Part shown: piece after piece, positions 7,721 through 44,598 of the stretch
Layout of the letters: each line of letters starts with the position of its first letter
Numbering within the stretch: position 1 is the first letter of the stretch
Assembly (NCBI RefSeq): GCF_004382795.1
Contig: NZ_SMSG01000001.1
Span: forward strand, 682,001 to 746,000
Source of the DNA: Cumulibacter soli
GTDB taxonomy: Bacteria > Actinomycetota > Actinomycetes > Mycobacteriales > Antricoccaceae
Length of the DNA stretch: 64,000 bases
Direction of reading: 5' to 3'
The notes under the pieces: generated by a model
What the model saw: only the letters and a program-made list of their open reading frames with translations
What the model was told of the DNA's origin: nothing
The model's database searches: none
Made by a program: the position numbers and the translations under genes

Positions 7721-7739
7721 TCCAGCGAGCGGGACGGGG

Positions 7740-7757: not shown

Positions 7758-7774
7758 GGCTACCTCTGGCGGGT

Positions 7775-7890: not shown

Positions 7891-7932
7891 CGGCGTAGCG
7901 TGGGAGGGTAACCAACTTCCAGGAGCAGCATC

Positions 7933-9783: not shown

Positions 9784-9794
9784 CCGTGTGAGCG

Positions 9795-9832
9795 ACTGCG
9801 GCGCGTCCCCCACGTTGGGGACGCGCCGCAGT
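9795..9832 (+). terminator. strong hairpin after ilvD
   Basis: A perfect 16-bp stem (9795-9810 with 9817-9832) around a 6-base loop begins 12 bases after the ilvD stop. It is one of the strongest stems in the window and fits an intrinsic terminator. Confidence 0.8.
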
Positions 9833-10000
9833 TGCGTCCTTACGTTCTCGCTCGTGCTCATTACCCAGCCCGCCCAGGTCGTTCCGCAGCACATATCGGC
9901 TTCATAACGCGCTTGTAGCGAGACGGCGTGTGGATATACCCGACGCCTCTGCCATCAGAGCCTGTCTTGAACCGGATCTGCGGGTATCGGCGGGCGATGA

Positions 10001-10885: not shown

Positions 10886-10985
10886 GTGTGCCCCCATCAT
10901 CGTCGATACGTTTCTTCGTTGACCGTACGGCGATGCCGCCTAGCCGCCAAGCGAACTCGGGCCTAGCGATGAACCCGCGACGGCA

Positions 10986-11963: not shown

Positions 11964-12004
11964 GCACCGTGCCTACCACCTGCGGTGCGGTGAGCGCGAG
12001 GCTC

Positions 12005-12051
12005 GCTGACATATTTGTCAGCGCGACCGCTCGCTGACATAGTTGGTCGGC
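12005..12051. promoter_or_regulatory. palindromic operator pair in divergent promoter
   Basis: Between the LLM gene and the SGNH gene, GCTGACATATTTGTCAGC (12005-12022) is a perfect 7-bp inverted repeat with a 4-base centre. A degenerate second copy (GCTGACATAGTTGGTCGGC, 12033-12051) starts 28 bp after the first. Two similarly oriented sites in a 125-bp divergent region look like operators of a TetR- or GntR-type repressor; no such regulator gene is adjacent. Confidence 0.55.
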
Positions 12052-12088
12052 GCGGCCATCGCCAGCTGGCGGTCGTAAACTCGCCGGT

Positions 12089-12931: not shown

Positions 12932-12938
12932 CGACGCA

Positions 12939-14033
12939 TTACTGCACGCCGACGGTGCGATCCCATTCGGTATCACGCAGGTCGATCACCGGTGCACCCG
13001 CCAACTTCGGGCCCTCGGTGTGCAAATGGCATTCCGAGTAACCACCGCCCGCGATCGCGTACCGGTCGGGTTTGACCTCCCGGCAGATCTCCATCGCGAA
13101 CGGACAGCGGGTGGCGAACGCGCACCCCACCGGCGGCGACCACGGGTCTGGCGGCTCACCGTGGACCATGTCCTGGCGCCCTCCGCCGGAGGTGACCGCG
13201 GCCCGAGGATTCGGCACCGCGGACACCAGTACCGCGGTGTACGGATGGCGGGATTCGTGAATGACTTGGTCCTGCCCGCCGAGTTCTACGATTCGCCCCA
13301 GGTACATCACCGCGATTCGGTCGCTCACCTTGCGCACCACGGCAAGGTCGTGACCGATAAAGAGGTACGCCGAGCTCAGCTCTTGTTTGAGTCGCTGCAG
13401 CAAGCGGAGGATCTGGCCTCGGGTCGACACATCGAGCGCGCTCACGGCTTCATCCAGAATCAGCACGCTCGGATCGGTGATCAGCGCCCGCGCGATGGCG
13501 ACGCGTTGACGCTGCCCGCCGGAGAATTCGTGAGGGTACTTCTCGAGCGCATCGTCGTTCAGACCGACGAGGCCGAGCATTTCCCGGACCCGACTCGGCC
13601 ATTGGTCCGCGGGCTGGATGCCGTGCACCTTCAGTGGCTCCTCCAACAGTTGCCGCACGGTCATCGAGGGATTGAGCGAGGAGTACGGATCCTGGTACAC
13701 CATCTGCATGGCCTTGCGTTCGGCACGAAGTGCCGTTCCGGAGAGTTCGGTCCACTCGGTTCCGGCAACCTTGATCGATCCACTTTCCAGCGGAATCAGC
13801 CGTTCGATCGCTTGAGCGACTGTCGATTTCCCAGATCCCGACTCTCCCACGAGCCCCAGGACTTCCCCAGGAAAGATGGAGAACGACACCTCGGTCGCTG
13901 CGTGCAACGTCTGCTTCTCACGCCCCAGCAGTCCCCGCGTGCGCGAGTAGGTGACGGTCAGGTCCGTGACCTCGAGCGCCGGCCGCTGATCAATGCCCAC
14001 CGTCTCTGCGTCTTGCGCTGCCGCGTTCTCCAC
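12939..14033 (-). CDS. peptide/nickel ABC importer ATPase, DppF/OppF type
   Basis: A 364-residue ABC ATPase, the second nucleotide-binding subunit of the importer encoded just upstream. It has Walker [10 protein letters not shown], the ABC signature FSGGQRQRVAIARAL, Walker B LILDEAVSALD and a C-terminal oligopeptide-permease extension with CAFATRCPFAMEICR, the Cys-containing segment of DppF/OppF proteins. The start is a GTG at 14033 that overlaps the stop of the previous ATPase gene (TAGTG) and has a GGAGGG ribosome-binding site, so translation is probably coupled. It is the last gene of the dpp-like run and sits in the cytoplasm on the inner face of the membrane complex. Confidence 0.93.
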   Translation of the reverse strand: MENAAAQDAETVGIDQRPALEVTDLTVTYSRTRGLLGREKQTLHAATEVSFSIFPGEVLGLVGESGSGKSTVAQAIERLIPLESGSIKVAGTEWTELSGTALRAERKAMQMVYQDPYSSLNPSMTVRQLLEEPLKVHGIQPADQWPSRVREMLGLVGLNDDALEKYPHEFSGGQRQRVAIARALITDPSVLILDEAVSALDVSTRGQILRLLQRLKQELSSAYLFIGHDLAVVRKVSDRIAVMYLGRIVELGGQDQVIHESRHPYTAVLVSAVPNPRAAVTSGGGRQDMVHGEPPDPWSPPVGCAFATRCPFAMEICREVKPDRYAIAGGGYSECHLHTEGPKLAGAPVIDLRDTEWDRTVGVQ

Positions 14034-15022
14034 TACAGTCCCTCCAACTGAAGTTCAGACGCCCGACGGCATCGCACGTCTCGACCGTGCACCTTCGCTA
14101 GCTCAATGCCCTCACTTGTTCGACATGCTTCTTCGACGTACGAACAGCGTTCGGCGAATCGACAACCGTGGATCTCGGTCTTGATCGACGGCACTTGTCC
14201 GGGGATGGTGGCGACAGTCTGCGAGTCGTCATCCAGGCTGATGATCGATCCCAGCAACCCGCTGGTGTACGGATGCAGCGGCTCGTGGAAGACCTTGGGC
14301 GTCTTATCGAGTTCGACGATCTCCCCCGCGTACATCACCGCTGTCCGATCGGCAATTTCAGCGATTACCCCTAAGTCATGGGTAATGAGTAGGACACTCA
14401 TGTGCGATTCGCCTTGTAGTTCTTTGATCAGGTCGAGTATGAGGGCCTGGACCGTCACATCCAATGCGGTCGTCGGTTCGTCCGCGATGAGTAGTTCGGG
14501 CGAGCAGGCCAGCGCCATCGCGATCATCGCCCGCTGCCGCATTCCACCCGAGAAATGATGCGGGTACTGCTCCACGTTTCGACGCGCATTCGGGATGCCG
14601 ACACGATCAATCATCTCGATCGCGCGATCCCAGGCTTGTTTGCGATTGCGATCGGTGTGCACGCGAACCACTTCGGCGATCTGCTCGCCGATGGTGTACG
14701 CCGGGTTCAGGCTCGACATCGGCTCTTGAAAGATCATTCCGACTCGATCCCCGCGAACTCGGTCGAGTTCACGGGGCTTCATGCCAAGTAACTCTGTACC
14801 GCCCAGCCGTACACTTCCCTGTACTCGGGACGTGTGCGCCGGCAGTAGCCCGAGCAGCGACATCGAGGTGACGCTCTTACCGGAGCCGGATTCGCCCACC
14901 AAACCGAAGACTTCGTTACGGGCAACCGAGAACGATACGTCGCGGACAGCGCGATTCCACCCTGTATTGAGGAGGAACTCGACGTTCAGTGAGTCGACCT
15001 CGAGTAGCGCTTCACCCGTCAT
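14033..15022 (-). CDS. peptide/nickel ABC importer ATPase, DppD/OppD type
   Basis: A 329-residue ABC ATPase with Walker [11 protein letters not shown]-loop [10 protein letters not shown], signature [15 protein letters not shown], Walker [13 protein letters not shown] and the switch His in [11 protein letters not shown]. The C-terminal [17 protein letters not shown] is the DppD/OppD cluster-like Cys motif. I take the ATG at 15022 (MTGEALL), one base after the permease stop and 8 bases from a GGAGG site, rather than a longer frame reaching into the permease gene. It pairs with the downstream ATPase to drive import of the ligand bound by the family-5 lipoproteins. Confidence 0.93.
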
Positions 15023-15023
15023 A

Positions 15024-15917
15024 TCAGGACCTCCGCTCTCGGCCGATCGAGTCGCGGATCCCGTCACCGACGAGGTTGAACGCGAGGACGGCGATGGCGA
15101 TCAGCGAACCCGACACGATAACGGCGACCGGAATCTGCGATACGTACGGTACGGCTCGACCCAGCAGCGACCCCAGGCTCGCATCGGGCGGTTGAACGCC
15201 CAGCCCCAGGAAGCTCAACGATGCCTCGACCAGCAGCGCGGTACCCATCGCGAGCGAAATCTGCACGACGATCGGCGACAACGCGTTCGGCACCAGGTGC
15301 CGCATCACGATGCGAGTCTTGCTGCACCCCAGCGTTTCCGCCGCACGGATGTAGGTCTCGGGCTTGATGCTGGCAGCTGAGGCACGAGCGACACGGAACA
15401 AGCGCGGGGCATAGACGATTCCGATCGCCAACATCGCGTTCGTCAGACCCGGGCCGCGAATGCCGACGATGACCACGGCGAGCAGCAAGCCAGGGAATGT
15501 CATGAGCGCATCGGCAATCCGGGACAGTACGGCGTCCCACTTTCCACCGAGATATCCAGCAATGATGCCCAACGGTGCGCCCAGCACCACGCTGAGCGCA
15601 GTGGCCTGCGCAGCAGCGAGCAACGAGGTCCGCATCCCGTACAGCACGCGGCTGAACATGTCGCGGCCAAGATCGTCGGTGCCGAGCCAATGCGCACCGC
15701 TCGGACCTTGCAGCGCATCTTGCAGACTGTTTTGCGCCGGAGGATAGGGCGCGATGACCGGCGCAAGAAGCGCGAGTAGCACCATCACCACAAGCACGCA
15801 CAGGGATGCGAACGCCAGCCGCTGCCGCACGAATCGATGTATTGTCCGGAACCGCTCCGAGTGCTTCTTGGCGCCCGAGTTCGGCGCCGCCACATTGACA
15901 GTAGGTTCGGTACTCAT
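15024..15917 (-). CDS. peptide/nickel ABC importer permease, DppC type
   Basis: A 297-residue inner-membrane permease. It has the N-terminal OppC-type segment (one transmembrane helix, then HWLGTDDLGRDMFSRVLYGMRTSL) and the binding-protein-dependent transport domain ending in the EAA-loop region AAETLGCSKTRIVMRHLVPNA. About six transmembrane helices are visible. The chosen ATG at 15917 overlaps the stop of the upstream permease by ATGA and has AAGGTGA upstream; a longer frame starting 27 bases earlier would lie inside that gene. It forms a heterodimeric channel with the DppB-type subunit. Confidence 0.93.
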   Translation of the reverse strand: MSTEPTVNVAAPNSGAKKHSERFRTIHRFVRQRLAFASLCVLVVMVLLALLAPVIAPYPPAQNSLQDALQGPSGAHWLGTDDLGRDMFSRVLYGMRTSLLAAAQATALSVVLGAPLGIIAGYLGGKWDAVLSRIADALMTFPGLLLAVVIVGIRGPGLTNAMLAIGIVYAPRLFRVARASAASIKPETYIRAAETLGCSKTRIVMRHLVPNALSPIVVQISLAMGTALLVEASLSFLGLGVQPPDASLGSLLGRAVPYVSQIPVAVIVSGSLIAIAVLAFNLVGDGIRDSIGRERRS

Positions 15918-16858
15918 CAGGTTCTCACCTTCGGACTCAACCATCCGTACGACAGGTCAACCAGCAGATTCACGATCAGCACTACGAACGCGGAGAAGAT
16001 CCCAATCCCCAGCACAACGGGGATATCGCGCTCCAGGATGGACTTGATGATCTGCGACCCGAGTCCGTTCAGATTGAACACCGTCTCGACCACCACGGTG
16101 CTGCCCAGCAGGCGGGATATCTGCACGCCCATCACAGTTACCACGGGCATCGACGCGTTGCGGAAACCGTGCTTGAACACTACCGATCGTCGCCCGACAC
16201 CTTTCGCCGTTGCCGTTCGGATGTAGTCCAACTCCAGGACGTCACCCAGTGACGCTCGAATGTGTCTGGTTAACTCTGCGGCCACTCCCGTCCCCAGCGT
16301 GATGGCAGGTAGGACAAGGTGTTGATACCAACCAACCGGATCCGCGGTGAACTCTACGTAGCCGGTCGCGGGGAACATCGGGATAGATACGGCCAGCCCC
16401 AGCACCAGCAGTAGACCGAGGAAGAAGTCCGGAATCGCGATGCCCAAGGATGAGGCGACCACGGCGAACCGGTCGGTCAGTCTGCCGCGACGGGTCGCCG
16501 CGATGATTCCCAGCGGAACCGAGATCACAATGGCGAATACCAACGACAGCAAGATCAGGCTCGCCGTCACCGGCAAGCGATCCATGATGATGTCCATGAC
16601 GTCGCGACCTTGGACGAACGACCGCCCAAAGTCTCCCTGCAGCACGTTCCCCGCCCACAAGAAGTACTGGGCGTAGAGGGGCTTATTGAGGCCCAACCGT
16701 TCGCGCGCTTCAGCAACAGTTGCCTCGTCGGCGTCCGGTCCGGCCGCCGCCCGCGCCGGATCGCCCGACGTCATGTGCAGCATGAGGAACGTGATCGTCA
16801 TGACGATGACGAGCGTGATGACAGCCGATAACAGACGGCGTCCGATATAGGGCAGCAT
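15917..16858 (-). CDS. peptide/nickel ABC importer permease, DppB type
   Basis: A 313-residue permease beginning MLPYIGRRLLSAVITLVIVM, the standard DppB/OppB first helix, followed by LMLHMTSGDPAR, the ERLGLNKPLYAQYFLW segment and an EAA loop (YIRTATAKGVGRRSVVFKHGFRNA). Six transmembrane helices. It starts 3 bases after the lipoprotein gene stops and overlaps the next permease by 4 bases, so the importer genes are one operon in the order lipoprotein, B, C, D, F. Confidence 0.93.
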   Translation of the reverse strand: MLPYIGRRLLSAVITLVIVMTITFLMLHMTSGDPARAAAGPDADEATVAEARERLGLNKPLYAQYFLWAGNVLQGDFGRSFVQGRDVMDIIMDRLPVTASLILLSLVFAIVISVPLGIIAATRRGRLTDRFAVVASSLGIAIPDFFLGLLLVLGLAVSIPMFPATGYVEFTADPVGWYQHLVLPAITLGTGVAAELTRHIRASLGDVLELDYIRTATAKGVGRRSVVFKHGFRNASMPVVTVMGVQISRLLGSTVVVETVFNLNGLGSQIIKSILERDIPVVLGIGIFSAFVVLIVNLLVDLSYGWLSPKVRT

Positions 16859-16861
16859 GAC

Positions 16862-18418
16862 CTAGGAGGGGCTGCAGCCTTCGCCCACGGTCACGTCTCG
16901 CAAATCCGGTGCGCCCGACCCGAGGTACGGATTCACGTTCAACACGCAGCCCGGCTCGGCGGCATAGATGTTTGCCCGGGTGATGACCGGCAGCGTCGCC
17001 ACCAACTCGGTGGTGAGCGCGCTCGCCTCCTGCACGGCAGTTGTGCGCGCCTCTGCGTCGCTGTCCGCGATCCCCTGAATCTCGACGATCTTGTCCGCCA
17101 GATCTGGGGAGATCACGCCGGCCGGTGCGTACGAGGCGTTCTCGCCGACCAACACTTCAAGCGTCTGGAGCGGATCTGCTCGACCGCCCCAACGGGCCAT
17201 CATCACGTCACCGACCTCGCCGCTGGTGTAGAGCCCGATCTGGCTGACATCCACTGTCTCGAATTCGACCGTGATTCCGACATCCGCAAGTTGCGCCTGG
17301 ATCGCCTCAGCTAATTGCAAGTACTCCGGCGTATTGAGCAGCAGCCAACTGAGCGTCACTTCCGGCGTGCCTGCCTCGGCAAGGAGTTCCTTTGCCTTGT
17401 CCGGATCATGCGGGTAATCAACGGCGTCCGGAGACGAATACGGAGAATCTCCGGGGAAGACCTGAACGACTGGTTCCGCCGTACCGAAGGAAAGCGCTTC
17501 GGCCAGTCCTTCACGATCGAGTGCATAACTGACTGCCTGACGAACCTTCAGATCCTTCAGCGGACCGCTGGTGTTCAGGTACATGACCCATTCGCTGCTG
17601 GTGGGATTCACGGTCACCTCGAGCCCGGAGTTCTCGGCTTCGGTGACCTGCCGCGGTGAGACCAGCGCCAGGTTCGCCTCGCCGGACCTCAAGGAATTCA
17701 GTCGCGTTTGGTCGTCCGCGACGTACCGCGCGGTGAACTTGGCCGGCCGATCACCCGGGCCGTCCCAGAAGTCATCGAAACGCGACATCACGGTCTCGTC
17801 GTTCGGCTCATAGGAGTCGACCATGTACGGGCCAGCCCCGACGGGGTCCAGATCAACACCTGTCGAGCCATCGATCGCATCCGGGCTGATCATCATTCCC
17901 AACTGCGTGGCGAGGCGAAACGCGAGTCCCGAGTCTGGCTCCTTGAGGGTGATAAGGACGGTCATCTCGTCCTGCGCCTCGACCTTCGCGATATTCTCCG
18001 CGCCGTCCTTGACCGCGATACCGGGCGCGGGGTGGTTCTGGCTGCGTTCAATGTTCTTGACGACGGCGTCGGCGTTGAACTCGGCCCCATCGTGAAAGGT
18101 CACGCCATCGCGGAGTGTCAACTCGAACTCGGTCAGTTCGTCGTTAACGAATCCCCACTCGGTGGCGAGTCCCGGTTCCAGTTCACCCTCCGGGGTCATC
18201 GTCAGCAGACGCTCGTAGATCGCATATAGGCCGGTTTGGGCGAAGCTGCTGTCATTCTGTGAGCCCGCAGGATCGAGATCGAGATTTCCTGATGCATCCA
18301 GGTACACCAGCTCACCATTCGGGTCGACCGGCGCGGCTTCGGCTGCGTCGTCTGAAGTCCCTCCCCCACAGGCCGTCAACAACATCACCAGTGCCACAGC
18401 GGAGATCCTCAGTCGCAT
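16862..18418 (-). CDS. ABC importer solute-binding lipoprotein, family 5
   Basis: A 518-residue extracellular solute-binding protein of the DppA/OppA (SBP_bac_5) family. A signal peptide ends in a lipobox (VMLLTACGGG, acylated Cys), so it is anchored on the outer face of the membrane. The body has the family pattern: LATEWGFVNDELTEFELTLR, DGVTFHDGAEFNADAVVKNIER and the later AVSYALDREGLAEAL. I start at the ATG at 18418 (MRLRISAV); a GTG at 18433 is also in frame. It is directly followed by both permease genes. Ligand could be a peptide, nickel-chelate, glycoside or xenobiotic; a second member of the same family lies at 21500-23083. Confidence 0.92.
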   Translation of the reverse strand: MRLRISAVALVMLLTACGGGTSDDAAEAAPVDPNGELVYLDASGNLDLDPAGSQNDSSFAQTGLYAIYERLLTMTPEGELEPGLATEWGFVNDELTEFELTLRDGVTFHDGAEFNADAVVKNIERSQNHPAPGIAVKDGAENIAKVEAQDEMTVLITLKEPDSGLAFRLATQLGMMISPDAIDGSTGVDLDPVGAGPYMVDSYEPNDETVMSRFDDFWDGPGDRPAKFTARYVADDQTRLNSLRSGEANLALVSPRQVTEAENSGLEVTVNPTSSEWVMYLNTSGPLKDLKVRQAVSYALDREGLAEALSFGTAEPVVQVFPGDSPYSSPDAVDYPHDPDKAKELLAEAGTPEVTLSWLLLNTPEYLQLAEAIQAQLADVGITVEFETVDVSQIGLYTSGEVGDVMMARWGGRADPLQTLEVLVGENASYAPAGVISPDLADKIVEIQGIADSDAEARTTAVQEASALTTELVATLPVITRANIYAAEPGCVLNVNPYLGSGAPDLRDVTVGEGCSPS

Positions 18419-31670: not shown

Positions 31671-33962
31671 CTAGCGAGCGCCTTGGAAGCCATCGGCGAC
31701 GGTGGCCGCGAGCTCGACAAACGCGTGCTCGGTCTCCGGCTTGAGTCGCGAGGTGTCGATCCGTCCACCCACGACCAGGTGTGGGTCGAACGGGATCTCA
31801 ACAACCGCGCGACACCGCGACTCGAAATGCCGCCGCAGTACCGCCATGTCAACGGTGTTCGATTTCTCCCGGACCGATGCGATGACGGCGACGGACTGCG
31901 AGACCAGGTGGCCGTAGCCGTGGGCCACGAGCCAGTCCAGGGTCTTCGATGCACGCGAGGAACCGTCGACGCTCGGCGCACCCACGACCACCAGCGAGTT
32001 GGCCTGCTCCAGGGTGCCTTTCATCGCCGAATGCAGCATGCCGGTGCCGGAGTCGGTCAGTACGACGTTGTAATACCGCGAAAGCAGGTCCGTGACTTCG
32101 GTGTACTGCCGCTCGTCGAACGCCTCGCTGATCTCGGCGTCCTGGTCGGAGGCGAGCACTTGCAACCGCCCAGCCAGCGACATGTAGCGGGAAATATCGG
32201 TAAAGGACGAGATCTCGTCCAGGTGATCGAGCATGGTGCGCACGGATACGTCGGTGACGCCGGTGAGCCGTTCAGCCAGGGTGCCCGCATCGGGATTGGC
32301 ATCGAGCGCAACTACCCGATCGCCGCGGTACTGCGCGAGCGTGAGTCCCAGGCACGACGTCGTCGTCGTCTTGCCGATGCCACCCTTGAGGCTGACGACC
32401 GCGATCTTGTGGCACCCATGGATGGGCGTGCGGACACGGTCGAGTAGGGCGTTGCGCTCGGTCTCCTCCTTAGAGGCGCCGAGGTTGATCCCGCCGAATG
32501 ACGCCTTGTACAGCACTCGGCGCCACCCGCCAGCGGGGGCGGGCTTGCTCTCGCGAACGAGCGCGGCATGGTTGAAGTCGATCGGCATGATCGAGTTCGG
32601 CGCCTGCGGCCCTTGCAGATGGGCTGGTATTGCGGCGACATTCACCTCCGCCGGGACGGCGAAGGCGCCAGACTGCGGAGCCTGCGCTGCGGCGTATGGA
32701 CTCGACTGCACAGCGGGTCCACCCTGTTGCGCAGCAGGCCCACCTGGTTGCGCGGCCGCGCGCGGATCAGCACCTGCCGTCGGGACAGCAGGCGGCACTG
32801 CGGGACCGGGCTCGGGCGGTACGGCGTTCCCGGGTGGCGTCCACTGGCTCCAGGTCTGCGGCTGCGGGGGCGTGGCAGCTTCGTACGCCGCTGGCCCCTC
32901 CGCCGATTGTTCCCACGCTGGCTGTCGGGGCCCCGACCGTCCCGGTGCAGGCTGTTCCTGCGGCTGCGGATCGTGGCCCTGCTGTTGCTGAGCGGGCTGT
33001 TCCCACCCCGATTGTTGTTCCGGCGCCGACCGCCCCTGTGGTTGCTCGTGTGCCGGAGCAGGCGACATCGGACCGTCCGCGGTCGACCTCACATCGCCGT
33101 CCGCGCCCGGCGTCACGTCACCGTCAGTCGGTCGCGGCGATTCGCTACTGGCGGCGCCATCGTGCGCCGGCGGCTCTGACTCATCCTCCGGCACGGCGTG
33201 CCGACCGAGTGGGCCTTGCTCCTGCTCGAGACCTGCGGGCGATGAGACGTGGCGCTCCAGGTCCTGCCGCGCCTCGGTTGCCACCGGCTGTGACGTACGC
33301 ACGTTCTGTGGCCATGCTGCGACCGCACTGTCGGCGTTCTGCGAATCCGACTGCTGTTCGCCGACCTGAGCGTGGCTGTCGGGCTCAGGCAATTCGTTCG
33401 CGTGTGGCAGCCGCGGGATCTCGTACGGCGCTCCCGGCCCGTAATGTGCGCGCTGCACGTACGGCACGGCGCCGGGCTGCTGAGACTGCGAACGCCCATC
33501 AGGCGAAGCGCCGGGTTGCTGAGCCGACGGTTGGGAGTCAGGCGTTCCGCCCGGCAGCGGACCGGTCTGCACGTGTGACTGCCGCTCCTGCGGGCCACCG
33601 GATTCCGATGAGGAGGCGAACTGCGGCGGTGCGGCATCCGAGACGGCGCGCGGCATCGGCGCCGGGTCACGACGCGGCGGCACCTGCTGATGCGCCCAAC
33701 CGCTAGAGGTGTTGCTGGGCGCGACGTTCGGCATCGGCGCTGGCGGCGGTGGCACTTTCGGCGTCCACGGGTCTGGAATGTCGTGCTGATTCACCTGCGG
33801 CGGAAGCCAATTGCGCACGGGGGCCGGTTGCTCGGGCACTCCGGGCTCGGGCGAATCCAGCCACGGATCGGGCGGTAATTGACGCGACGTGCCTGATTCG
33901 GCGCCAGGGCTCGTCGCGTCCTGCGGCCGATTCGAATCTGACGTGCTCGGCTGTTCACTCAC
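31671..33962 (-). CDS. EspI-like ParA/MinD-family ATPase with Pro/Gln-rich N-terminus
   Basis: A 763-residue protein in two parts. Residues 1 to about 440 are a Pro/Gln/Ser-rich low-complexity region. The C-terminal half is a ParA/MinD-type ATPase: a conserved lead-in GGWRRVLYKASFGGINLG, a deviant Walker A VVSLKGGIGKTTTTSCL (about residue 527, with the signature lysine), ALDANPDAGTLAERL, and YNVVLTDSGTG in the Walker B position. This plan is that of EspI (Rv3876) and SCO5717-type proteins, which accompany type VII secretion loci. No ESX gene is in this window. It is divergent from the Hsp70-dynamin operon, whose last gene has a similar Pro/Gln-rich region. GTG 33962 is the likely start (TTG 33965 possible). 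Confidence 0.85.
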   Translation of the reverse strand: MSEQPSTSDSNRPQDATSPGAESGTSRQLPPDPWLDSPEPGVPEQPAPVRNWLPPQVNQHDIPDPWTPKVPPPPAPMPNVAPSNTSSGWAHQQVPPRRDPAPMPRAVSDAAPPQFASSSESGGPQERQSHVQTGPLPGGTPDSQPSAQQPGASPDGRSQSQQPGAVPYVQRAHYGPGAPYEIPRLPHANELPEPDSHAQVGEQQSDSQNADSAVAAWPQNVRTSQPVATEARQDLERHVSSPAGLEQEQGPLGRHAVPEDESEPPAHDGAASSESPRPTDGDVTPGADGDVRSTADGPMSPAPAHEQPQGRSAPEQQSGWEQPAQQQQGHDPQPQEQPAPGRSGPRQPAWEQSAEGPAAYEAATPPQPQTWSQWTPPGNAVPPEPGPAVPPAVPTAGADPRAAAQPGGPAAQQGGPAVQSSPYAAAQAPQSGAFAVPAEVNVAAIPAHLQGPQAPNSIMPIDFNHAALVRESKPAPAGGWRRVLYKASFGGINLGASKEETERNALLDRVRTPIHGCHKIAVVSLKGGIGKTTTTSCLGLTLAQYRGDRVVALDANPDAGTLAERLTGVTDVSVRTMLDHLDEISSFTDISRYMSLAGRLQVLASDQDAEISEAFDERQYTEVTDLLSRYYNVVLTDSGTGMLHSAMKGTLEQANSLVVVGAPSVDGSSRASKTLDWLVAHGYGHLVSQSVAVIASVREKSNTVDMAVLRRHFESRCRAVVEIPFDPHLVVGGRIDTSRLKPETEHAFVELAATVADGFQGAR

Positions 33963-34317
33963 CAAGAGTTTGAGTCCTCCCGCGGTATGCGCCCTGCGCT
34001 GATGCCACCGATATGCATCCGACTACCCTAGTCATCGAAGGTTGGCCAACGGTGCATAGTTCAAACTTCTTTCAGGCAACTGTCTCCGACGGTTCATCGA
34101 CATGCACTGGATCACACGTACGGCACTCCCCGGCCCGTCGGGGATCCACGAGCCGCACCATTACGTCGGAGCCCCTGGAAGTTCAGTGACAGCAGGGGCC
34201 TACATGGCAGTATGGGCGTGGGTGCGATGTGCGCGCCCGATGCTGACGACGAAGACTTAACAACCTCCGCACGCGACACCCAGCGGTCAACGGCGCGGCG
34301 GAGTGCAAGGGGTGAGA
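33963..34317. other. divergent promoter region of EspI-like and Hsp70-like genes
   Basis: About 355 bases between two divergent starts. A hairpin (GCCCCTG 34171-34177 with CAGGGGC 34193-34199, 15-base loop) is the only clear structure. I could not pick promoter hexamers with confidence and found no convincing small gene. Confidence 0.4.
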
Positions 34318-35934
<1,617 letters not shown>

Positions 35935-35956
35935 CGATACCGAAAGGAGCCCGCCG

Positions 35957-37480
35957 ATGACCTCTCCCGCGCCGCGCCGCATGTCTTCGCTGGTCATCGG
36001 TATGGCCGAATCACTGCTATCCCGGGTTCCTCCGGCCACTGCCAACGAGATCAGCGCGATCACCAATCGCCTTCGCGGTCCACTCCAACTCGCGGTCGCC
36101 GGCCGGATCAAATCAGGTAAATCGACGGTCGTCAATGGGATGATCGGGCGGCGGGTATCAGCCACCGACGTACGCGAATGCACGCGAATGGTCACCCGAT
36201 TCCAGTACGGCACCGTCGACCGCGTCGAGGTTCGAAAGAACGACGGCACCGTCATCACGCTGCCCTACGACGGCGACGGCGTGATCCCCGCCGACCTCGG
36301 CTGCGACCCCGAGGAGGTCGCCGTAGTCGATGCATATCTGACGTATGACGCGCTGCGCGACGTGACCATCATCGACACCCCCGGCCTCGCGTCACTACAC
36401 GATCAAAGCGTGGGCCGCACCCAGGCGATGCTGGGCAGCGAGGAGCCCGACGAGCATGGTGCCGTCGACGAACGTTCGCAGCAAGCGATCGCGTCGGCAG
36501 AGGCAGTCTTGTACGTCATCACCCAGTCGATCCGGGCCGACGACGCGGACGCGCTCAGCGCCTTCCGCCGCACCTCCAGCGGGCAGACCAGCAGCCCGAT
36601 CAACGCACTGGCGATCCTGAACAAGGCCGACATGGTGCAGGCAGATGACCCGATGGCTGCAGCGGCAGAACTGGCTCGCGATCACAGCTACACGCTGCGG
36701 CATACCGTCTCCCAGGTGCTCCCGCTAGCGGGATTGATGGCGGAGTCCGCGCGCACCGGAAACTTCACCGAGGCTGATGCGCAGGTGTTGCGCGACATTG
36801 CCGGACTGGACGAGTCCACTCGACAGGTTCTGTTCATGTCGACAGATTTCTTCGTACGCCCCGAGATCCCCGTCGATGTAGCCGGACGCGAGCGCGTGCT
36901 CACCCTGCTCGACTTGTATGGCGCCCGCACCGCCGTCGATGCAATCCTGGCCGACCCGCAGATCACCACTGGCCGAATTCGGGAACTGCTCGAACAGGAC
37001 AGCGGATTTCCCGCACTGAACAAGGTGATCCTGGGCGTGTTCAGCGTGCGCGCCGACGACATCAAGTCGGCTGTCGCGCTCGCCGCTCTCGAACAACTCG
37101 CACACGATTCGCCGCCGCCGGTACGCGACACGATGGCCGATGAGCTCGAGGAGTTGTACCAGCACCCCGAGGCGCAGCAATTGCGCCTGCTCGAGGCGGC
37201 GACGCTGGTGTCCACCGGGAAGGTGGACTTACCGGACGAGATGTTCGACGAAGTGCGGATGCTCGTGACCGGAACCGCGCCCGACCAGATGCTCGGCGCA
37301 CCCGGGGCGACGGCAAATGAACTGGTACAGCACGCGCTAGCCGCGGCCGGGCGATGGCGCGAGTTCGCAACCTTCGGATCTAACCCCGCTCAATCTCGAA
37401 TCGCTCATACGATCCATCGTTCGTACTTCATGCTCTGGCAGCATCTACGAACCCTCACCGCAGGAGGGACCACTTCATGA
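35957..37480 (+). CDS. dynamin-like GTPase (IniC-like), short member
   Basis: A 507-residue dynamin-superfamily GTPase. G1 is AGRIKSGKSTVVNGM (residues about 48-62), the G2 threonine is in CTRMVTRF (76), G3 is IIDTPG (139-143) and G4 LNKAD (221-225). A helical stalk-like region follows; I see no membrane helix. The G1 and overall size resemble mycobacterial IniC. AAAGGAG lies 10 bases before the ATG, 22 bases after the Hsp70-like stop, and the gene overlaps the GrpE-like gene by ATGA. Bacterial dynamin-like proteins often work in pairs, one with and one without a membrane-binding segment; the partner is encoded two genes on. Confidence 0.9.
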   Translation: MTSPAPRRMSSLVIGMAESLLSRVPPATANEISAITNRLRGPLQLAVAGRIKSGKSTVVNGMIGRRVSATDVRECTRMVTRFQYGTVDRVEVRKNDGTVITLPYDGDGVIPADLGCDPEEVAVVDAYLTYDALRDVTIIDTPGLASLHDQSVGRTQAMLGSEEPDEHGAVDERSQQAIASAEAVLYVITQSIRADDADALSAFRRTSSGQTSSPINALAILNKADMVQADDPMAAAAELARDHSYTLRHTVSQVLPLAGLMAESARTGNFTEADAQVLRDIAGLDESTRQVLFMSTDFFVRPEIPVDVAGRERVLTLLDLYGARTAVDAILADPQITTGRIRELLEQDSGFPALNKVILGVFSVRADDIKSAVALAALEQLAHDSPPPVRDTMADELEELYQHPEAQQLRLLEAATLVSTGKVDLPDEMFDEVRMLVTGTAPDQMLGAPGATANELVQHALAAAGRWREFATFGSNPAQSRIAHTIHRSYFMLWQHLRTLTAGGTTS

Positions 37481-38037
37481 CCGACAACCAGACACCACCG
37501 CAGCAGGACGTCGAGGATGTGCTGGAACTCGCCCTGCGAGAGCGCGCCGTGGAAAGCGACGACGACTACGACGACCAAGCCGAAGCGGATTCAACCGCCG
37601 ACGCACCAGCCGACTCCGATCCCGAGGCCGCCGCGGCCGACTCGAACGAGGACGGCGAGGACTACGTGCTGTACTCCGAGGTGCGTCCGCACCTGGAGGC
37701 GCTGGTCCAGTTGCAGTCCGAACGCGAACAGCTCCTTGACGAGCGCGACAAGATGATCGGGCTATTGCTGTACGCCCGCGACCGAGTCGCATCCGCCGCG
37801 GTCGCTTCCCGGATGGACGACAACCTGGCACAACTCGGTATCGAGCTCATCGTTCCGGCTGTCGGCGACCGGTTCGACGCGCAGCAGCACGAGGCCTCGG
37901 CGACCGTGTTCACCGAGGACTCCGCACTGCACGGCACGATCGCCGAGATCGAACTTGCCGGATACCGCGACGGCGAACGTCTGGTACGGCACCCGATCGT
38001 CACGGTATTTACAACCGATCGCCCGACGTCGACATGA
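37477..38037 (+). CDS. GrpE-like nucleotide exchange factor
   Basis: A 186-residue protein with a very acidic N-terminus (residues 28-62), a coiled-coil (about 66-100: EALVQLQSEREQLLDERDKM) and a C-terminal beta-domain matching GrpE: LGIELIVPAVGDRFDAQQHEA (118-140), GTIAEIELAGYRDGERLVR (153-171) and a closing VTVF strand. This is the Hsp70-contacting part of GrpE. It overlaps its neighbours by 4 bases on both sides, so production is tightly coupled to the two GTPases. The general dnaK-grpE operon is not here, so I infer a dedicated factor for the membrane Hsp70-like protein. Sequence similarity is convincing at the C-terminal domain only. Confidence 0.82.
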   Translation: MTDNQTPPQQDVEDVLELALRERAVESDDDYDDQAEADSTADAPADSDPEAAAADSNEDGEDYVLYSEVRPHLEALVQLQSEREQLLDERDKMIGLLLYARDRVASAAVASRMDDNLAQLGIELIVPAVGDRFDAQQHEASATVFTEDSALHGTIAEIELAGYRDGERLVRHPIVTVFTTDRPTST

Positions 38038-41000
38038 CCGCACCCAAACAGGGCTCGGGCAAACGAATCACGCTGTCTCAGCTCGCGCGGCAGACCGCTG
38101 ATCGCGGTCTGGCGGTACTCGAAGAGCACGACCCGGAAGTCGCGGGGCGACTGTCGCGCATGCGTGGTCGGCGCCCCGACAAACCCACGGTCGTGGTGGT
38201 TGGTGAAGCAAAACGCGGCAAGTCGAGTCTGACGAATGCGCTGATCAACGTTCCGGGACTCTCCCCCGTCGACTCACGCATCGCCACGAGCACGTACATC
38301 ATGTTTCGGCGCGGGCCGAAGACTGCGGCGCGTGCACTGTTGCCGGGAGCGCAAGAACCCGTAGAAGTGCCGCTAGATCAGATGCGCGACTGGGCAACCG
38401 ACCTCGGCAATCGCGGCGAATACGCGCCACCGCGGCTGATCGAGGTTGAGTGCGACTCGCCCTTACTGGGCAATCTGAATCTCGTCGACACACCCGGCGT
38501 CGGCGGGCTGGACGCTACGCACGCCGAGATCGCGCTGCGCGCCGTCGGCCGAGCGACAGCCCTGCTGTTCGTCTGCGACGCGTCCGCACCGTTCACCAAA
38601 CCCGAACTAGAGTTCCTCGATAAGGCATCGAAGAATATCGATCTTGTTATCTTCGCGGTAACCAAGACCGATGCCTACCGCGGCTGGCGGCAAATCGTCG
38701 AGGACAACCGGGCCTTGCTGCGCGAACACGCACCTCGGTTCGCGGACAGCGTGATGATGCCAGTCTCATCGAAGCTATTCGAACAAGCCGCGCTGATGGG
38801 GACCAGCGACCTGGGCACCGCCCTGCGCGAGGAATCCCAAATCACCCAGTTGCAGGCGGCCCTGCAGGAGCAGGTCGCGATCAAGGCGTCGGCGTTGCAC
38901 GAAGCCAATCTGCTGCGCACCATGCGCTCGCAACTCGACGGACTGATGACCAGCCTCGAGGACAGCCGCCGCGCCTGTCAGCCGGATGTGGAGTACGCCA
39001 ATCGGCTCAAGGAGAACCGCGACCGCCTCATGGCCGCCCGCAAGGCGGACTCGCGCGCCTGGCAGCTGCGCTTGCGTTCGCTGTTGTCGCGGGCACGACT
39101 CGACACGATGGCCGACATTCAGTCCGAGAACCGCAAGTTCTTGGCGTTCTGGCGACGGCAGATCGAGGAAATGGACAAGGCCCGACTGAAGGCCATCGGC
39201 CCGCAACTCGATATGGCGTTGCGCGCATCGTCGATGCAGATCTTCGACCGCCAACAGGCCCGCATGCAAGGCGTCTCGCGCACCGTGCTGCAGTCGATGT
39301 TCGCGCAGAACGAACTGGCCGAGGTGTACGCCGCCCTGCAGCGCCCCCGTCAGGTCGCTAGTACCAGCGGCCCCTCGCGACGCCAGTCCAGCGCCGACGA
39401 GAAGGTGCTCACCAACATCAGCATGATGTCGGGCATCTCAATCACCAGCATCACCGGCAGCGGGCTGACCGCCGCGACCGGCGCGGCGATAATCGCGTGG
39501 CCGATCGCCGTCGCCGTGGGTGTCAGCGTCGCAGGCTGGATCGTGTGGGCGCGACGTACGGCGTCCGACCGAAACCAACTGAAGATCTGGCTGAACGAGA
39601 CGCTCGGCGAGACCCGGGCCCGCCTCGAAGCCGACGCATCGGCGTACTTCATCGAGGCCGAGCACGAGTTGACACTGGCCCTGGACCGCGCATTGGTACG
39701 TCGGATTGAGACGCTCGACGGTCACATCAAGCAGATCGACCAATCGCTGAAGGTGGACCGCGGCGAACGCGAGCGCCGCGCTGCGGCGATCACGAAACAA
39801 ATCAACACCGTGCGCGAAGTCGCCGGCACAATCGAGCAACTACTGCCGAGGCTGCGCAATGCCGTCGTACAGCGACGCCAGAAGCCACAGCAGGAAGGCT
39901 CGGAAGCACCGGGGACACCGGCGGCAGACGCGCAGAGCCAGGAAGGGAGCGCTCAGCCCGCTCCAGGTGGCGCCGACGCTCAGCCCCAGCCCGCCACAAG
40001 CAACGCAGCACCGCCCCAACCTGATCAAGGCGATGGCACACCGGCGCAGCCGGATCAAGCGCAGGCCCCGCAGACCGCCGCCGCGCAGCCCGTACAGACG
40101 CAGGCGCAGCCCGCGCAGGCGACCGGCCTACCGCCAGGGCAGAGTGCCGCGGCGGATCCGGCCAGCGCTAGTCCAGCAGGCTCGGGACCGCAGCCTCCGG
40201 CGGCCCAGGCCCCTGCCGCGGCTCCCGCGGACACCACACTGCCAGTCACGCCGCGAATGTGGCGGACTCTGGACGAAGGCTCGGCATCCGGCAATGCCAC
40301 GGATGTCAGCCAGAATTCCGCCGCCGACCAGAATTCCGTAGCGCGGAATGAGGCCGAACCTAAAACCCAGCGCGACCTAACCTCGAGTCTCACGCCTGCC
40401 GCATCAGGATCACACGACGAGAACACAGGGAATCAGCCCGCGGCGAAGCCAGCCACGCCCCGAGCCCCGCAATCGGTCGCCGCTATGGCCAGGGCGGCGT
40501 CCGCAAGACTCGCGCAACGTCGAGCCGCCGAAAGCGGGGCCGCATCCGCACCGGCACCACCTGCGACGCAGACCTCCACACCACAGGCACAGGCACAGGG
40601 ATCGTCTACGACCCAGGTACCCGAACAGGCGCCGTCCGAGTCGTCAACGCCGACGGCCGAGGGTGCGCAACCGATGTACGCCGGGGCGCAACCACCCGCC
40701 GACGCCGCGGAACCCGACCGGACCGCGAAACCTGCACAACCAGGACCCGACGCGGAGTACCCCGGCGCCACAGACGCCAGCTATCCGCAGCCACCCAGTC
40801 AGGGCGATGACCGCCAGGCGTCACCGCTAATTGGACCCGATGCCAGCTACCCGACATCACCGGCACCCGAGGCCGATGCCGGTTATCCGCCACCCTCACC
40901 TCAGCCCGACGTCAATTACACGACACAAGGGCCACCAGCGCCGGTCTCGAACTACCCCGCACCCGCGCCTGGCGCCGAGTACGCCGGCACACCACAAGCC

Positions 41001-41813
41001 GGGTATCGCCAGCCACCCGCTCAGGGCGCCGGCCATCAGCAGCCACAGCCCTCCGGCCCCGGTTCGAACTACCCCACTGCGCCATCTCCTGGATCCGACG
41101 CCAACTACCCGTCACCACAACACCCGGGACGACCCGACGCTCACTACTCGGCCTCACAGCCACCGGGACGACCCGACGCCAACTACCCGGCCTCACAGCC
41201 ACCGGCGACTACTTCGAGTCACCTAGAGCCCCAGCCACCCGGCCCCGGTTCGCACTACCCTGCATCGCCACCGACCGGTCCGATGGCGAGCCAACCCCCA
41301 CAACCCCCCGCTACGAGTGCCGGCTATCCGAACGCGCAGCCGCCGCATGCACCGCAACCGCCGGGCGCCAACGCCGGTCATGCAGCCGCGCAGCAGCCGA
41401 CGACCGGAGCATTCGCGGCACCCGCAGCGCCCCCGCAGGTCACCTACTCTCCACTGCCTCCCGACGACGAGCCGGACACGCACAGCACTGCCACACCGGC
41501 CGACGGCGGATTTCCTCCGCCGTCCCCCGACACGGCCGCACCCGTCGGAGCGTTCCCACCGCCTGCGCCGTACGCACACTCGGCCGGAGCGCCGGCAGCA
41601 CCACAGCACCCACAGCACCCACAGCACCCACAGCACCCACAGCACCCACAGCACGGTCCTACCCACGCCGGTCAGCAGTGGCCGCCTACCGGACCAGCAA
41701 CTCAAGGTCCGGGAGCGGCGGCTCAGACTCAGGACGGGACCGAGCAGCGGACGCCCGGCTCAGCCGGTCAGTTCGGCGCGCCGCCGCACAACCCGAATGA
41801 GCACAACACCTAG
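38034..41813 (+). CDS. dynamin-like GTPase with hydrophobic segment and long Pro/Gln/Tyr-rich tail
   Basis: A 1259-residue protein in three parts. Residues 50-290: GTPase domain with G1 VGEAKRGKSSLTNAL (57-65), G2 in ATSTYIMF, G3 VDTPGVGG (152-155), G4 TKTD (210-213). Residues 290-615: helical stalk interrupted by a hydrophobic stretch (about 464-507, including AIIAWPIAVAVGVSVAGWIVW) fit for membrane insertion, then a charged coiled-coil. Residues 616-1259: low-complexity Pro/Gln/Ala tail with about a dozen Tyr-centred repeats of the type DANYPxSQ and a terminal run of six PQH units. The GTPase half is IniA-like; a tail of this size is far beyond the usual 600-700 residues of bacterial dynamins. 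ATGA overlap with the GrpE-like gene. Confidence 0.88.
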   Translation: MTAPKQGSGKRITLSQLARQTADRGLAVLEEHDPEVAGRLSRMRGRRPDKPTVVVVGEAKRGKSSLTNALINVPGLSPVDSRIATSTYIMFRRGPKTAARALLPGAQEPVEVPLDQMRDWATDLGNRGEYAPPRLIEVECDSPLLGNLNLVDTPGVGGLDATHAEIALRAVGRATALLFVCDASAPFTKPELEFLDKASKNIDLVIFAVTKTDAYRGWRQIVEDNRALLREHAPRFADSVMMPVSSKLFEQAALMGTSDLGTALREESQITQLQAALQEQVAIKASALHEANLLRTMRSQLDGLMTSLEDSRRACQPDVEYANRLKENRDRLMAARKADSRAWQLRLRSLLSRARLDTMADIQSENRKFLAFWRRQIEEMDKARLKAIGPQLDMALRASSMQIFDRQQARMQGVSRTVLQSMFAQNELAEVYAALQRPRQVASTSGPSRRQSSADEKVLTNISMMSGISITSITGSGLTAATGAAIIAWPIAVAVGVSVAGWIVWARRTASDRNQLKIWLNETLGETRARLEADASAYFIEAEHELTLALDRALVRRIETLDGHIKQIDQSLKVDRGERERRAAAITKQINTVREVAGTIEQLLPRLRNAVVQRRQKPQQEGSEAPGTPAADAQSQEGSAQPAPGGADAQPQPATSNAAPPQPDQGDGTPAQPDQAQAPQTAAAQPVQTQAQPAQATGLPPGQSAAADPASASPAGSGPQPPAAQAPAAAPADTTLPVTPRMWRTLDEGSASGNATDVSQNSAADQNSVARNEAEPKTQRDLTSSLTPAASGSHDENTGNQPAAKPATPRAPQSVAAMARAASARLAQRRAAESGAASAPAPPATQTSTPQAQAQGSSTTQVPEQAPSESSTPTAEGAQPMYAGAQPPADAAEPDRTAKPAQPGPDAEYPGATDASYPQPPSQGDDRQASPLIGPDASYPTSPAPEADAGYPPPSPQPDVNYTTQGPPAPVSNYPAPAPGAEYAGTPQAGYRQPPAQGAGHQQPQPSGPGSNYPTAPSPGSDANYPSPQHPGRPDAHYSASQPPGRPDANYPASQPPATTSSHLEPQPPGPGSHYPASPPTGPMASQPPQPPATSAGYPNAQPPHAPQPPGANAGHAAAQQPTTGAFAAPAAPPQVTYSPLPPDDEPDTHSTATPADGGFPPPSPDTAAPVGAFPPPAPYAHSAGAPAAPQHPQHPQHPQHPQHPQHGPTHAGQQWPPTGPATQGPGAAAQTQDGTEQRTPGSAGQFGAPPHNPNEHNT
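41126..41203 (+). repeat. 39-bp tandem duplication within the dynamin tail
   Basis: Two nearly identical 39-bp units (41126-41164 and 41165-41203) encode GRPDAHYSASQPP and GRPDANYPASQPP. The copies differ at few bases, implying recent expansion, while the other Tyr repeats of the tail have diverged further. Confidence 0.85.
41601..41654 (+). repeat. six perfect 9-bp tandem repeats (PQH)
   Basis: CCACAGCAC occurs six times without change and encodes (Pro-Gln-His)6 near the C-terminus of the long dynamin-like protein. Copy number can be expected to vary by slippage without shifting the frame. Confidence 0.95.
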
Positions 41814-42768: not shown

Positions 42769-44598
42769 GTGACTTCGCAGGACAATCTGACCGTTGAGGA
42801 CGCCCCGACTAAGCACAAGGAGCTCCTTGCTTGGGTCGCCGAGGTCGCCGCGATGACGCAGCCGGACGCCATCCGCTGGGTCGACGGATCTGACATGGAG
42901 TGGAAGCAGATCACCGATCAGCTCGTCGAGGCTGGCACGATCGTGCGTCTGAACGAGGAGAAGCGCCCGAACTCGTTCTGGGCCATGTCCGACCCGACGG
43001 ACGTCGCTCGCGTCGAAGACCGCACCTACATCTGTTCCGAGAACGAGGTAGACGCCGGCCCGACGAACAACTGGATGGATCCGGCCGAGATGAAAGGGAT
43101 CCTCAAGGGTCTCTACGCCGGCTCGATGAAGGGTCGCACGATGTACGTCGTGCCGTTCTGCATGGGCCCGATCGACGCCGACGACCCGAAGTTCGGCATC
43201 GAGATCACCGACTCCGAGTACGTCGTCCTGTCGATGCGCATTATGTGCCGCACCGGACAGAACGTGCTCGACGCACTCGGCGACGAGCGCCCGTTCGTCA
43301 AGGCTCTACACTCGGTGGGTGCTCCGCTGGCCGAGGGCCAGGCCGACGTGCCGTGGCCCTGCAGCGACACCAAGTACATCACCCACTTCCCGGAGACCCG
43401 CGAGATCTGGTCCTACGGTTCGGGCTACGGCGGCAACGCCCTCCTCGGCAAGAAGTGCTTCTCGCTGCGCATCGGTTCGGTGCTGGGCCGCGATGAGGGC
43501 TGGATGGCCGAGCACATGCTCATCCTGAAGCTGACCTCCCCCGAGGGCAAGACCCACTACATCACCGGCGCATTCCCCTCGGCCTGCGGTAAGACCAACC
43601 TCGCGATGCTGGAGCCGACCGTTCCCGGCTGGAAGGTCGAGACCCTCGGCGACGACATCGCCTGGCTGCGCTTCGGCTCGGACGGTCGCCTGTACGCCGT
43701 GAACCCCGAGTTCGGCTTCTTCGGTGTCGCCCCGGGTACCTCGTACGAGACCAACCCGAACGCGATGCGCACGATGGAGAAGGGCAACTCGATCTTCACG
43801 AACGTCGCGCGTACCGACGACGGCGACGTGTGGTGGGAGGGGATGACCAAGGACGCCCCCGAGCACCTCATCGACTGGCACGGCAACGACTGGACTCCCG
43901 CTTCGGGCGCGGTTAGCTCGCACCCCAACAGCCGTTTCTGCACCCCGATCGATCAGTGCCCGGTTCTCGCGCCGGAGTACCACAACGAGCCGAACGGCGT
44001 GCCGATCTCTGCGATCATCTTCGGCGGCCGCCGCAAGACCACGATCCCGTTGGTGACCGAGTCCCGCGACTGGCAGCACGGCGTATTCATGGGTGCGACG
44101 ACCTCCTCGGAGACCACCGCCGCCGCGACCGGCGCCGTGGGCGTCGTCCGCCGCGACCCGATGGCGATGCTGCCGTTCATCGGCTATAACGCCGGCGACT
44201 ACATCAACCACTGGATCGAGATGGGCAAGAAGTCTGACGCATCGAAGATGCCGAAGGTCTTCTACGTCAACTGGTTCCGCCGCGACGACGACAACTCGTT
44301 CCTGTGGCCGGGATTCGGCGAGAACAGCCGCGTGCTGAAGTGGATCGTCGAGCGCATCGAAGGCACCGCGGAGGCCGTGGACACCCCGATCGGACGTGTG
44401 CCGGCCGAAGGTTCGCTCGACATCGACGGCCTGGACATCTCGGCCGAGCAGCTGGCCAAGGCGTCGGCCGTCAAGGTCGATGAATGGAAGGCCGAGATCC
44501 CGCTGATCGAGGAATGGTTCGCCAAACTGGGTGAGCGCTTGCCCTCGACCATGCACGACGAGTTGAGCACGCTCAAGGGCAACCTCGACAACGCCTAA
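42769..44598 (+). CDS. pckG: phosphoenolpyruvate carboxykinase (GTP)
   Basis: A 609-residue GTP-dependent PEP carboxykinase that interconverts oxaloacetate and PEP at the entry to gluconeogenesis, or anaplerotically. Clear landmarks are the kinase P-loop with the active-site cysteine ([13 protein letters not shown]), LGDDIAWL for Mn binding, RVESRDWQ-like [14 protein letters not shown] and the C-terminal NWFRRDDDN with guanine-binding aromatics. Length is standard for the GTP family and unlike the ATP form. Codon use is strongly biased to C-ending codons, consistent with high expression. The start is a GTG at 42769 with GAGGAG upstream. Two strong hairpins follow the stop. Confidence 0.97.

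Follow-up and report, generated by a model that had tools for sequence, protein, structure and literature searches.

A GrpE-like gene between two dynamin-like GTPase genes in Cumulibacter soli and its relatives, often linked to an Hsp70-type ATPase gene

To our knowledge, few regulators of bacterial dynamins are known. In mycobacteria the iniBAC genes, which are induced by cell-wall drugs, include those of two neighbouring dynamin-like GTPases, IniA and IniC. Heterotypic dynamin pairs encoded side by side have also been described for DynA/DynB of Streptomyces and Cj-DLP1/2 of Campylobacter (PMC6104087; DynB is also covered in PMC8748795). A link between dynamins and the Hsp70 family is already known from two reports: a dnaK-like gene lies downstream of iniR in M. 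smegmatis (PMC5760070) and, in the "chaperone clade" of cyanobacterial dynamins, a gene with a DnaK domain lies downstream of that of the dynamin-like protein (PMC5827413). We analysed 64,000 nucleotides of Cumulibacter soli (contig NZ_SMSG01000001.1, positions 682,001 to 746,000), hereafter the window, in which a four-gene operon encodes an Hsp70-like ATPase, a dynamin-like GTPase (DynC), a GrpE-like protein and a second dynamin-like GTPase (DynA). This operon shares with iniBAC the two neighbouring dynamin genes, DynA matching IniA with a similarly placed transmembrane segment (TM) or paddle; it differs in having DynC first and the GrpE-like gene between the two. With the cyanobacterial clade, to which it is likened by description only, it shares a bacterial dynamin linked to an Hsp70-family gene, whereas GrpE is unmentioned in the accessible main text of that report; likewise no Hsp70 or GrpE partner is mentioned in the accessible text of the two papers on the Streptomyces and Campylobacter pairs. 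In the literature, searched mostly outside subscription journals, we found no GrpE-like member of a dynamin-Hsp70 set. The GrpE-like member would be the new element here, the link of Hsp70 to dynamins being itself already known.

The GrpE-like gene (37477-38037, + strand, 186 residues) overlaps by 4 bp the DynC gene (35957-37480, + strand, 507 residues) at 37477-37480 and the DynA gene (38034-41813, + strand, 1259 residues) at 38034-38037. The Hsp70-like gene (34303-35934, + strand, 543 residues), called from a GTG with an in-frame ATG also present at 34318, is separated from DynC by 22 bp, so the overlaps are confined to the last three genes. Pfam matches are 2.4e-33 (HSP70), 4.9e-12 (Dynamin_N, DynC), 6.1e-9 (GrpE) and 3.6e-15 (Dynamin_N, DynA). 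An earlier note, made from the sequence alone, had described five genes in a divergent layout with 4-bp overlaps between the last three of the operon, and the coordinates of the open reading frames (ORFs) agree with it; its span, 33962-41813, includes just the start of the fifth, ParA-like gene. No NCBIfam model reached its cut-off with the five proteins of the locus, and a scan for promoters and terminators returned nothing above chance.

The unit formed by DynC, the GrpE-like gene and DynA is real and conserved. A search with the GrpE-like protein in a sample of 200 genomes of the order, that of the window included, gave 76 matches in 73 genomes at 1e-3. Among the matches of at least 35 bits, 54 of 55 lie directly downstream of a DynC gene, on the same strand and within 3 kb, as do none of the 21 weaker ones. 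All 76 matches entered this adjacency test, together with the DynC matches of at least 130 bits taken without the second pieces of split genes, and no genome with a weak GrpE match was omitted. In the lone exception (G013) the sole DynC-type match is on another contig. The three genes lie on one strand in 33 of the 40 order-level regions that were fetched (L055, L065 and L067-L071 are excluded from the trio counts, as are L105, L107-L111, L113 and L114 of the class-level set). A second entry, through DynC in named genomes, recovered relatives in 415 of 449 candidate stretches; at the best 80, which were kept, the trio is in order in 79 cases, the miss being a 4.3-kb contig. These 80 loci nearly all belong to Pseudonocardiaceae (presumably, family names being deduced from organism names), plus Nakamurella lactea and a metagenome-assembled genome (MAG) of an unclassified member of Pseudonocardiales.

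Outside the order, the GrpE gene and both dynamins were found in 12 of 20 high-scoring class-level stretches, hand-picked from the top matches with a few others of equal score (G393 and G464 among them) skipped; at one of the 12 (L112) the GrpE scores like an ordinary GrpE. At 1e-5 the query matches 346 of 394 genomes of the class, mostly, we take it, through ordinary GrpE, and this tally was not used as a count. In the phylum sample 8 of 396 genomes match at E <= 1e-13, i.e. the window genome and seven others at 52.7-57.6 bits; six of the seven align from model position 30-37 onward, which covers the wing region and little else, and the seventh (G647) from position 12. A first scan of contigs with a single GrpE-like sequence had returned no relatives. 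Gene starts in relatives were assigned mechanically, which leaves gap lengths and N-terminal TM predictions rough; with these starts 13 of 33 loci have a gap of exactly -4 bp between the GrpE-like gene and DynA, which suggests coupled translation. The context of the stop codon (ATGA or GTGA at 30 of 44 junctions) was dropped as proof of overlap: the frame was not required, and such a context is common by chance.

The GrpE-like protein is a partial GrpE. Its Pfam match covers residues 109-177 only and begins at position 97 of the 165 of the profile, so that a C-terminal GrpE domain had been correctly read in the sequence. The protein has an acidic N-terminus. Its AlphaFold2 model, confident over residues 71-180 (block means of 95-98), shows a helix (66-103), a short helix (107-119) and a beta-wing (122-179, nucleotides 37840-38013, + strand), to which the alignment also points. 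With this model the Foldseek ranks 1-12 against the PDB are all GrpE, and the profile of the family matches seven GrpE chains of the PDB at E <= 9e-7. The wing is strongly conserved and carries a signature of the FDPxxHEA type. In GrpE of Mycobacterium tuberculosis the long helix at the N-terminus, which carries conserved basic residues, touches subdomain IA of the DnaK nucleotide-binding domain (NBD) and the substrate-binding domain (SBD), while the wing touches subdomains IB and IIB of the NBD (PMC10803776). The basic patch of this stalk is found in 0 of 34 rows of the GrpE-like family, trimmed to their last 150 residues or fewer, versus 5 of 6 ordinary GrpE; in an ungapped register the window reads RPHLE where the mycobacterial protein has NYRKR. 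Since the model retains 38 residues of helix at 66-103, the stalk is shortened and altered and part of it remains.

Both dynamins of the window have an intact P-loop, DTPG and [NT]KxD, as had been claimed for their GTPase motifs. With the G-motifs in the wording used for dynamins, the P-loop pattern is present in 63/63 relatives of DynC and 62/62 of DynA, and D[TA]P[GA] in 62/63 and 60/62 respectively; the G4 motif [NTS]KxD is found in just 37/63 and 48/62. DynC has no predicted TM and is a distant relative of IniC, with about 29-38% identity to the lower-scoring, IniC-type proteins. It models as a dynamin of the BDLP/IniA type, with a GTPase domain and helical bundles: the best of five AlphaFold2 models (pLDDT 81.7; 58.7-68.2 for the other four) has BDLP and IniA as its top Foldseek matches, with a best E of 1e-10 and modest TM-scores. 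DynA matches IniA of M. smegmatis (6j72) at a phmmer E of 6.8e-27. Its predicted TM/paddle (residues 486-504, nucleotides 39489-39545, + strand) is placed much as that of IniA, reported at residues 463-485 (PMC6715688), and its Pro-rich tail is about 630 residues long. This tail holds a 39-bp tandem repeat (41095-41205) and 6.7 copies of a 9-bp tandem repeat, CAGCACCCA (41596-41654), which encodes Gln-His-Pro; such tracts may differ between strains.

The Hsp70-like protein comprises an NBD (residues 1 to about 356), a Pro-rich linker and a single C-terminal TM predicted by a hydropathy scan at residues 523-541 (35869-35925, + strand). Its phosphate and adenosine motifs are intact. Among 40 readable rows of its relatives K70 is kept in all, as are D, G, G, T and D of the DLGGGTFD motif, the middle G being kept in 37. 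The intact NBD and the membrane helix announced by the earlier note are thus both present. An SBD was searched for in 62 non-canonical Hsp70 ORFs, some of them pieces of one gene: the window protein and 53 others gave no match. In stretches that bear dynamins the count is 0 of 51, versus 8 of 11 outside such stretches (L067, L076, L107-L111 and L114; not detected in L084 and in two ORFs of L093). As no SBD was detected, the Hsp70-like protein is not an ordinary chaperone. Compared with the DnaK-GrpE system, the operon retains an Hsp70 NBD with intact ATPase motifs and the wing and short helices of GrpE. It differs by an undetected SBD, the lack of a linked J-protein and of the stalk basic patch, predicted TM segments, and changed canonical contact residues.

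Of the 18 order-level trio loci with a linked Hsp70, 17 have a TM after the NBD. When this segment is missing from a linked Hsp70, one is usually predicted in the GrpE-like ORF instead (L062, L096, L100-L104 and L106; not L097), so that one or the other is predicted to be membrane-anchored at nearly all loci with both, L097 being an exception. One or two predicted TMs precede the wing in the GrpE-like ORFs of L052, L054, L056, L059, L062, L063, L073, L100-L104 and L106; judging from these predictions, such GrpE relatives are possibly membrane-bound. Other pairs of GrpE and Hsp70 genes, which overlap or are separated by 7 or 27 bp, occur at L109 (9374-11786), L110, L111 and L114; their Hsp70 is of the SBD type, about 530 residues long, there is no dynamin in the stretch, and they seem to form a different, chaperone-type system.

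How firmly is the Hsp70-like gene attached to the trio? It is present in the fetched stretch, mostly 20 kb and sometimes shorter (L036, 4.2 kb, is too short to hold it), at 29 of 45 trio loci: 18 of 33 at order level and 11 of 12 at class level, the latter being no rate for the class since those stretches were hand-picked. In nine fetched regions, as in the window, it immediately precedes DynC on the same strand; four of the nine (L051, L057, L058 and L060, all of family f3) have 0.8-4.2 kb between the GrpE-like gene and DynA. The order Hsp70-DynC-GrpE-DynA is that of the window, L035, L037, L038, L061 and L072. The set also stays together when its order is changed: other arrangements are DynA-GrpE-Hsp70-DynC in L079 (GrpE at 39.6 bits), Hsp70-Hsp70-GrpE-DynA..DynC in L098 and L099, and GrpE..DynC-DynA..Hsp70, with Hsp70 on the opposite strand, in L100-L104 and L106. 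At the level of whole genomes of the order sample, an Hsp70 NBD match at 1e-45 is found in 54 of the 55 genomes with the GrpE-like gene versus 26 of the 145 without it (Fisher p ~1e-27 over the 200 genomes, relatedness not corrected). In the one GrpE-like genome without such a match (G002) the operon is on a 4.2-kb contig. The Pseudonocardiaceae of this sample that have the GrpE-like gene carry their Hsp70 NBD relatives elsewhere in the genome. The neighbourhood search named in the earlier note as a check on whether the genes are kept together was thus run and did not refute the proposal made there, an Hsp70-type ATPase and its exchange factor building up or taking apart a dynamin coat, which is partly supported: the trio is held together (54/55 and 79/80), the link to Hsp70 is weaker (29/45 and 2/80, see below) and the ParA-like gene is not part of it (3/40).

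Taken together, these data lead us to consider, at about even chances, that a heterotypic dynamin pair at the membrane is under the control of an Hsp70 switch that has no SBD and is reset by an exchange factor of its own. The four proteins would make up a membrane-remodelling module of Actinomycetes. DynC and DynA would form a heterotypic pair of the IniA/IniC kind, in which DynA would enter the membrane via its paddle and DynC would be a soluble partner or adaptor. The membrane-tethered Hsp70-like protein would work as an ATP-driven conformational switch rather than as a folding chaperone, the ATP or ADP state of its Hsp70 domain altering its affinity for DynC or DynA and hence docking or release. 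The cut-down GrpE-like protein would pry ADP from it, which would reset the switch and set the dwell time. We infer that the GrpE-like protein binds the NBD of the Hsp70-like protein and that the latter acts on DynC/DynA. That the SBD and the stalk patch are both gone agrees with an exchange factor left with no substrate to release. The narrower form of this proposal, a dual-nucleotide membrane machine in which a membrane-tethered Hsp70 without SBD has turned into nothing but an ATP switch, with its own cut-down GrpE as timer, and drives the assembly or release of a heterotypic dynamin coat, is more tentative and falls somewhat short of an even chance. By analogy with iniBAC, and in view of the regulators, LuxR-type or two-component, that adjoin the operon in other families, the system may have a role in envelope maintenance or stress.

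An exchange-factor gene conserved between dynamin genes, often with an Hsp70-type ATPase adjacent, is a concrete candidate regulator of dynamin assembly. Here Hsp70 and GrpE appear to have been taken apart: the cargo domain and the matching patch of GrpE are missing, the ATPase and the wing are retained. If the proposal is true, nucleotide exchange on an Hsp70 domain would be a general-purpose switch, and this would be, as far as the literature found goes, the first GrpE-type exchange factor controlling a dynamin and the first GrpE working without substrate release.

Several observations nevertheless weigh against this switch. The residues of M. tuberculosis GrpE that contact subdomain IIB (Arg169, Asp110 and Ser118; PMC10803776) are not kept in the GrpE-like family. 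The position of Arg169 is Leu or Val in an alignment judged by eye, and its DnaK partner, Glu236, is variable in the Hsp70-likes and Val in the window. Where DnaK has the hairpin with Tyr257, 33 of 41 Hsp70-likes show a gap; the gap is also seen at L077, L078 and L094, where no GrpE-like gene was recognised. A co-variation of the contact residues of the two proteins is therefore not clean, and this argument was dropped. L077 and L078 moreover have Hsp70, DynC and DynA with no recognised GrpE-like gene; these two sets are apparently natural losses. No dedicated J-domain gene is linked to the operon, and of the two matches in the genome one lies beside the housekeeping grpE. The Hsp70 family is broader than the module: 26 of the 80 genomes that carry it have no GrpE-like gene, and paralogues with a TM and without a detected SBD occur at L196-L200 and L202. 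(At L196, positions 8498-18282, the paralogue adjoins type VII secretion genes, EccC, EccD, WXG100 and a subtilase, L196 alone having been scanned; the stretch of another Hsp70-like copy, L201, has no dynamin.) Finally, Hsp70 lies within 8 kb of the trio at just 2 of the 80 best loci found through DynC, those of Nakamurella and of the unclassified MAG, and at 0 of the remaining 78, nearly all from Pseudonocardiaceae. In our estimate the loss of the GrpE stalk patch makes up for this looser link to Hsp70 in Pseudonocardiaceae.

The unkept contact residues and the unlinked Hsp70 of Pseudonocardiaceae keep alive a second reading, in which the GrpE-like protein no longer works as an exchange factor and instead bridges DynC and DynA as a structural adaptor, with the Hsp70-like protein a separate partner. 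The far tighter conservation of the trio than of the Hsp70 link (79/80 versus 2/80) speaks for such an adaptor, as do the placing of its gene between those of the dynamins and the recurrent -4 bp junction with DynA. We nevertheless judge it unlikely: the wing signature and the fold are strongly conserved, a relative of the SBD-less Hsp70, matched through its NBD, is present in nearly all genomes with the GrpE-like gene (54/55), and the rearranged sets of L079, L098 and L099 put GrpE beside Hsp70.

Auxilin recruits Hsc70 to clathrin and, by the same logic, the GrpE-like protein could recruit housekeeping DnaK for an ATP-driven uncoating of the dynamin coat, the SBD-less Hsp70 being a regulator. 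The protein is a true GrpE relative by profile and fold, and housekeeping dnaK, grpE and dnaJ are located elsewhere in the genome of Cumulibacter soli. Recruitment of DnaK is nevertheless improbable, because Arg169 and the loop touching DnaK IIB have been altered or cut short, the helix that works on DnaK has no basic patch, and it is the SBD-less Hsp70 that co-occurs with the GrpE-like gene. Still more doubtful is ordinary chaperone help, i.e. Hsp70 and GrpE folding aggregation-prone dynamins. Purified IniC is reported to be poorly stable (PMC6715688), which would fit such a need, but the SBD is undetected in the Hsp70-like protein and a dedicated J-protein is not linked.

The earlier note had also supposed a single machine made of the four gene products and "positioned by a ParA-type ATPase". 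The divergent gene (31671-33965, - strand, TTG start; Pfam CbiA/ParA-type 4e-8) encodes a MinD/ParA-type ATPase with a Pro/Gln-rich N-terminus of about 470 residues; with the Hsp70 linker and the C-terminus of DynA this accounts for the three Pro-rich, low-complexity products reported from the sequence. The gene is kept in three of the 40 fetched regions (L035, L037 and L038), all from the window's own family, and was not found in the other 37, where two-component or large LuxR-type regulators often occupy the divergent place. The supposition of positioning was not supported, a machine placed by ParA having very little probability; ParA was rejected as a core part, and the ATPase is probably a lineage-specific neighbour. 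"EspI-like", the name given to it in the earlier note, is a tentative label for this gene: EspI of ESX is a MinD/ParA ATPase, rich in Pro, that is encoded in a type VII locus. The product here is of the MinD/ParA type and Pro-rich; the EccC-type genes over the cut-off in the window genome sit elsewhere (C4 and C2). An anti-phage cassette of the bacterial-dynamin (LeoABC-like) sort is scarcely credible and was rejected, its one support being the PADLOC match of DynA (8.7e-22 for LeoA, 4.4e-17 for LeoBC) with models that may merely detect dynamins, whereas the unit is widely kept, and near pckA in three families, unlike mobile defence islands.

The comparison with iniBAC can be taken further. 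Neither IniB nor IniR is found beside the window operon, whose neighbours are the ParA-type ATPase gene and pckA; an IniB-like protein was seen at L075, and IniR at L088 (1426 bits). L075 (G000:C3:526500-546000; 7473-12519 and 15321-16430, both on the - strand) is a separate iniBAC-like locus in the window genome, with genes for a Gly/Asn-rich IniB-like, an IniA-like and an IniC-like protein and a degenerate Hsp70-like ORF in which the motif DLGGGT reads DLGRHT. Since such a locus exists in the same genome, the window operon is a paralogous system. A TM-bearing Hsp70-like gene was also present at 11 of the 15 loci fetched for the lower-scoring, mostly IniC-type, matches of DynC; these 11 include L079, which has a GrpE-like gene, and L088, where it adjoins IniR. 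The other four are L075, L080 (with a fragment at the edge of the fetched stretch), L081 (with no such gene) and L090 (with dnaK only). The Hsp70-like protein of L089 scored below entry to the SBD test. In FastTree trees, midpoint-rooted and read from their listed parts, DynC and Hsp70 divide alike into an ini-type group and a mostly GrpE-bearing group. In the DynC tree the GrpE-bearing L112 falls with the ini-type group, which counts with the points raised above against the switch. The Streptomyces pair was rejected as the same system: in the genus that we take to be Streptomyces (f33 g78, name inferred), one of six genomes has a DynA match at 1e-8 (3.9e-9).

In other families candidate regulators face the operon. 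At L045 these are a LuxR-type response regulator and a histidine kinase; at L059 it is a protein of 860 residues that has a LuxR-type helix-turn-helix (HTH) as well as an AAA-type match. By clustering, relatives of the kinase occur at 11 of the 40 regions and those of the large regulator at 8, L045 and L059 included. The likeness of the large regulator to IniR is limited to the LuxR HTH and to faint similarity near the P-loop, and IniR was rejected on this ground as the regulator of this operon. Downstream of DynA lies pckA (42769-44598, + strand), a PEP carboxykinase gene by its Pfam match (PEPCK_GTP, 4.6e-175). Its relatives (cluster c5) follow the dynamin unit at 14 loci from three families, the window included.

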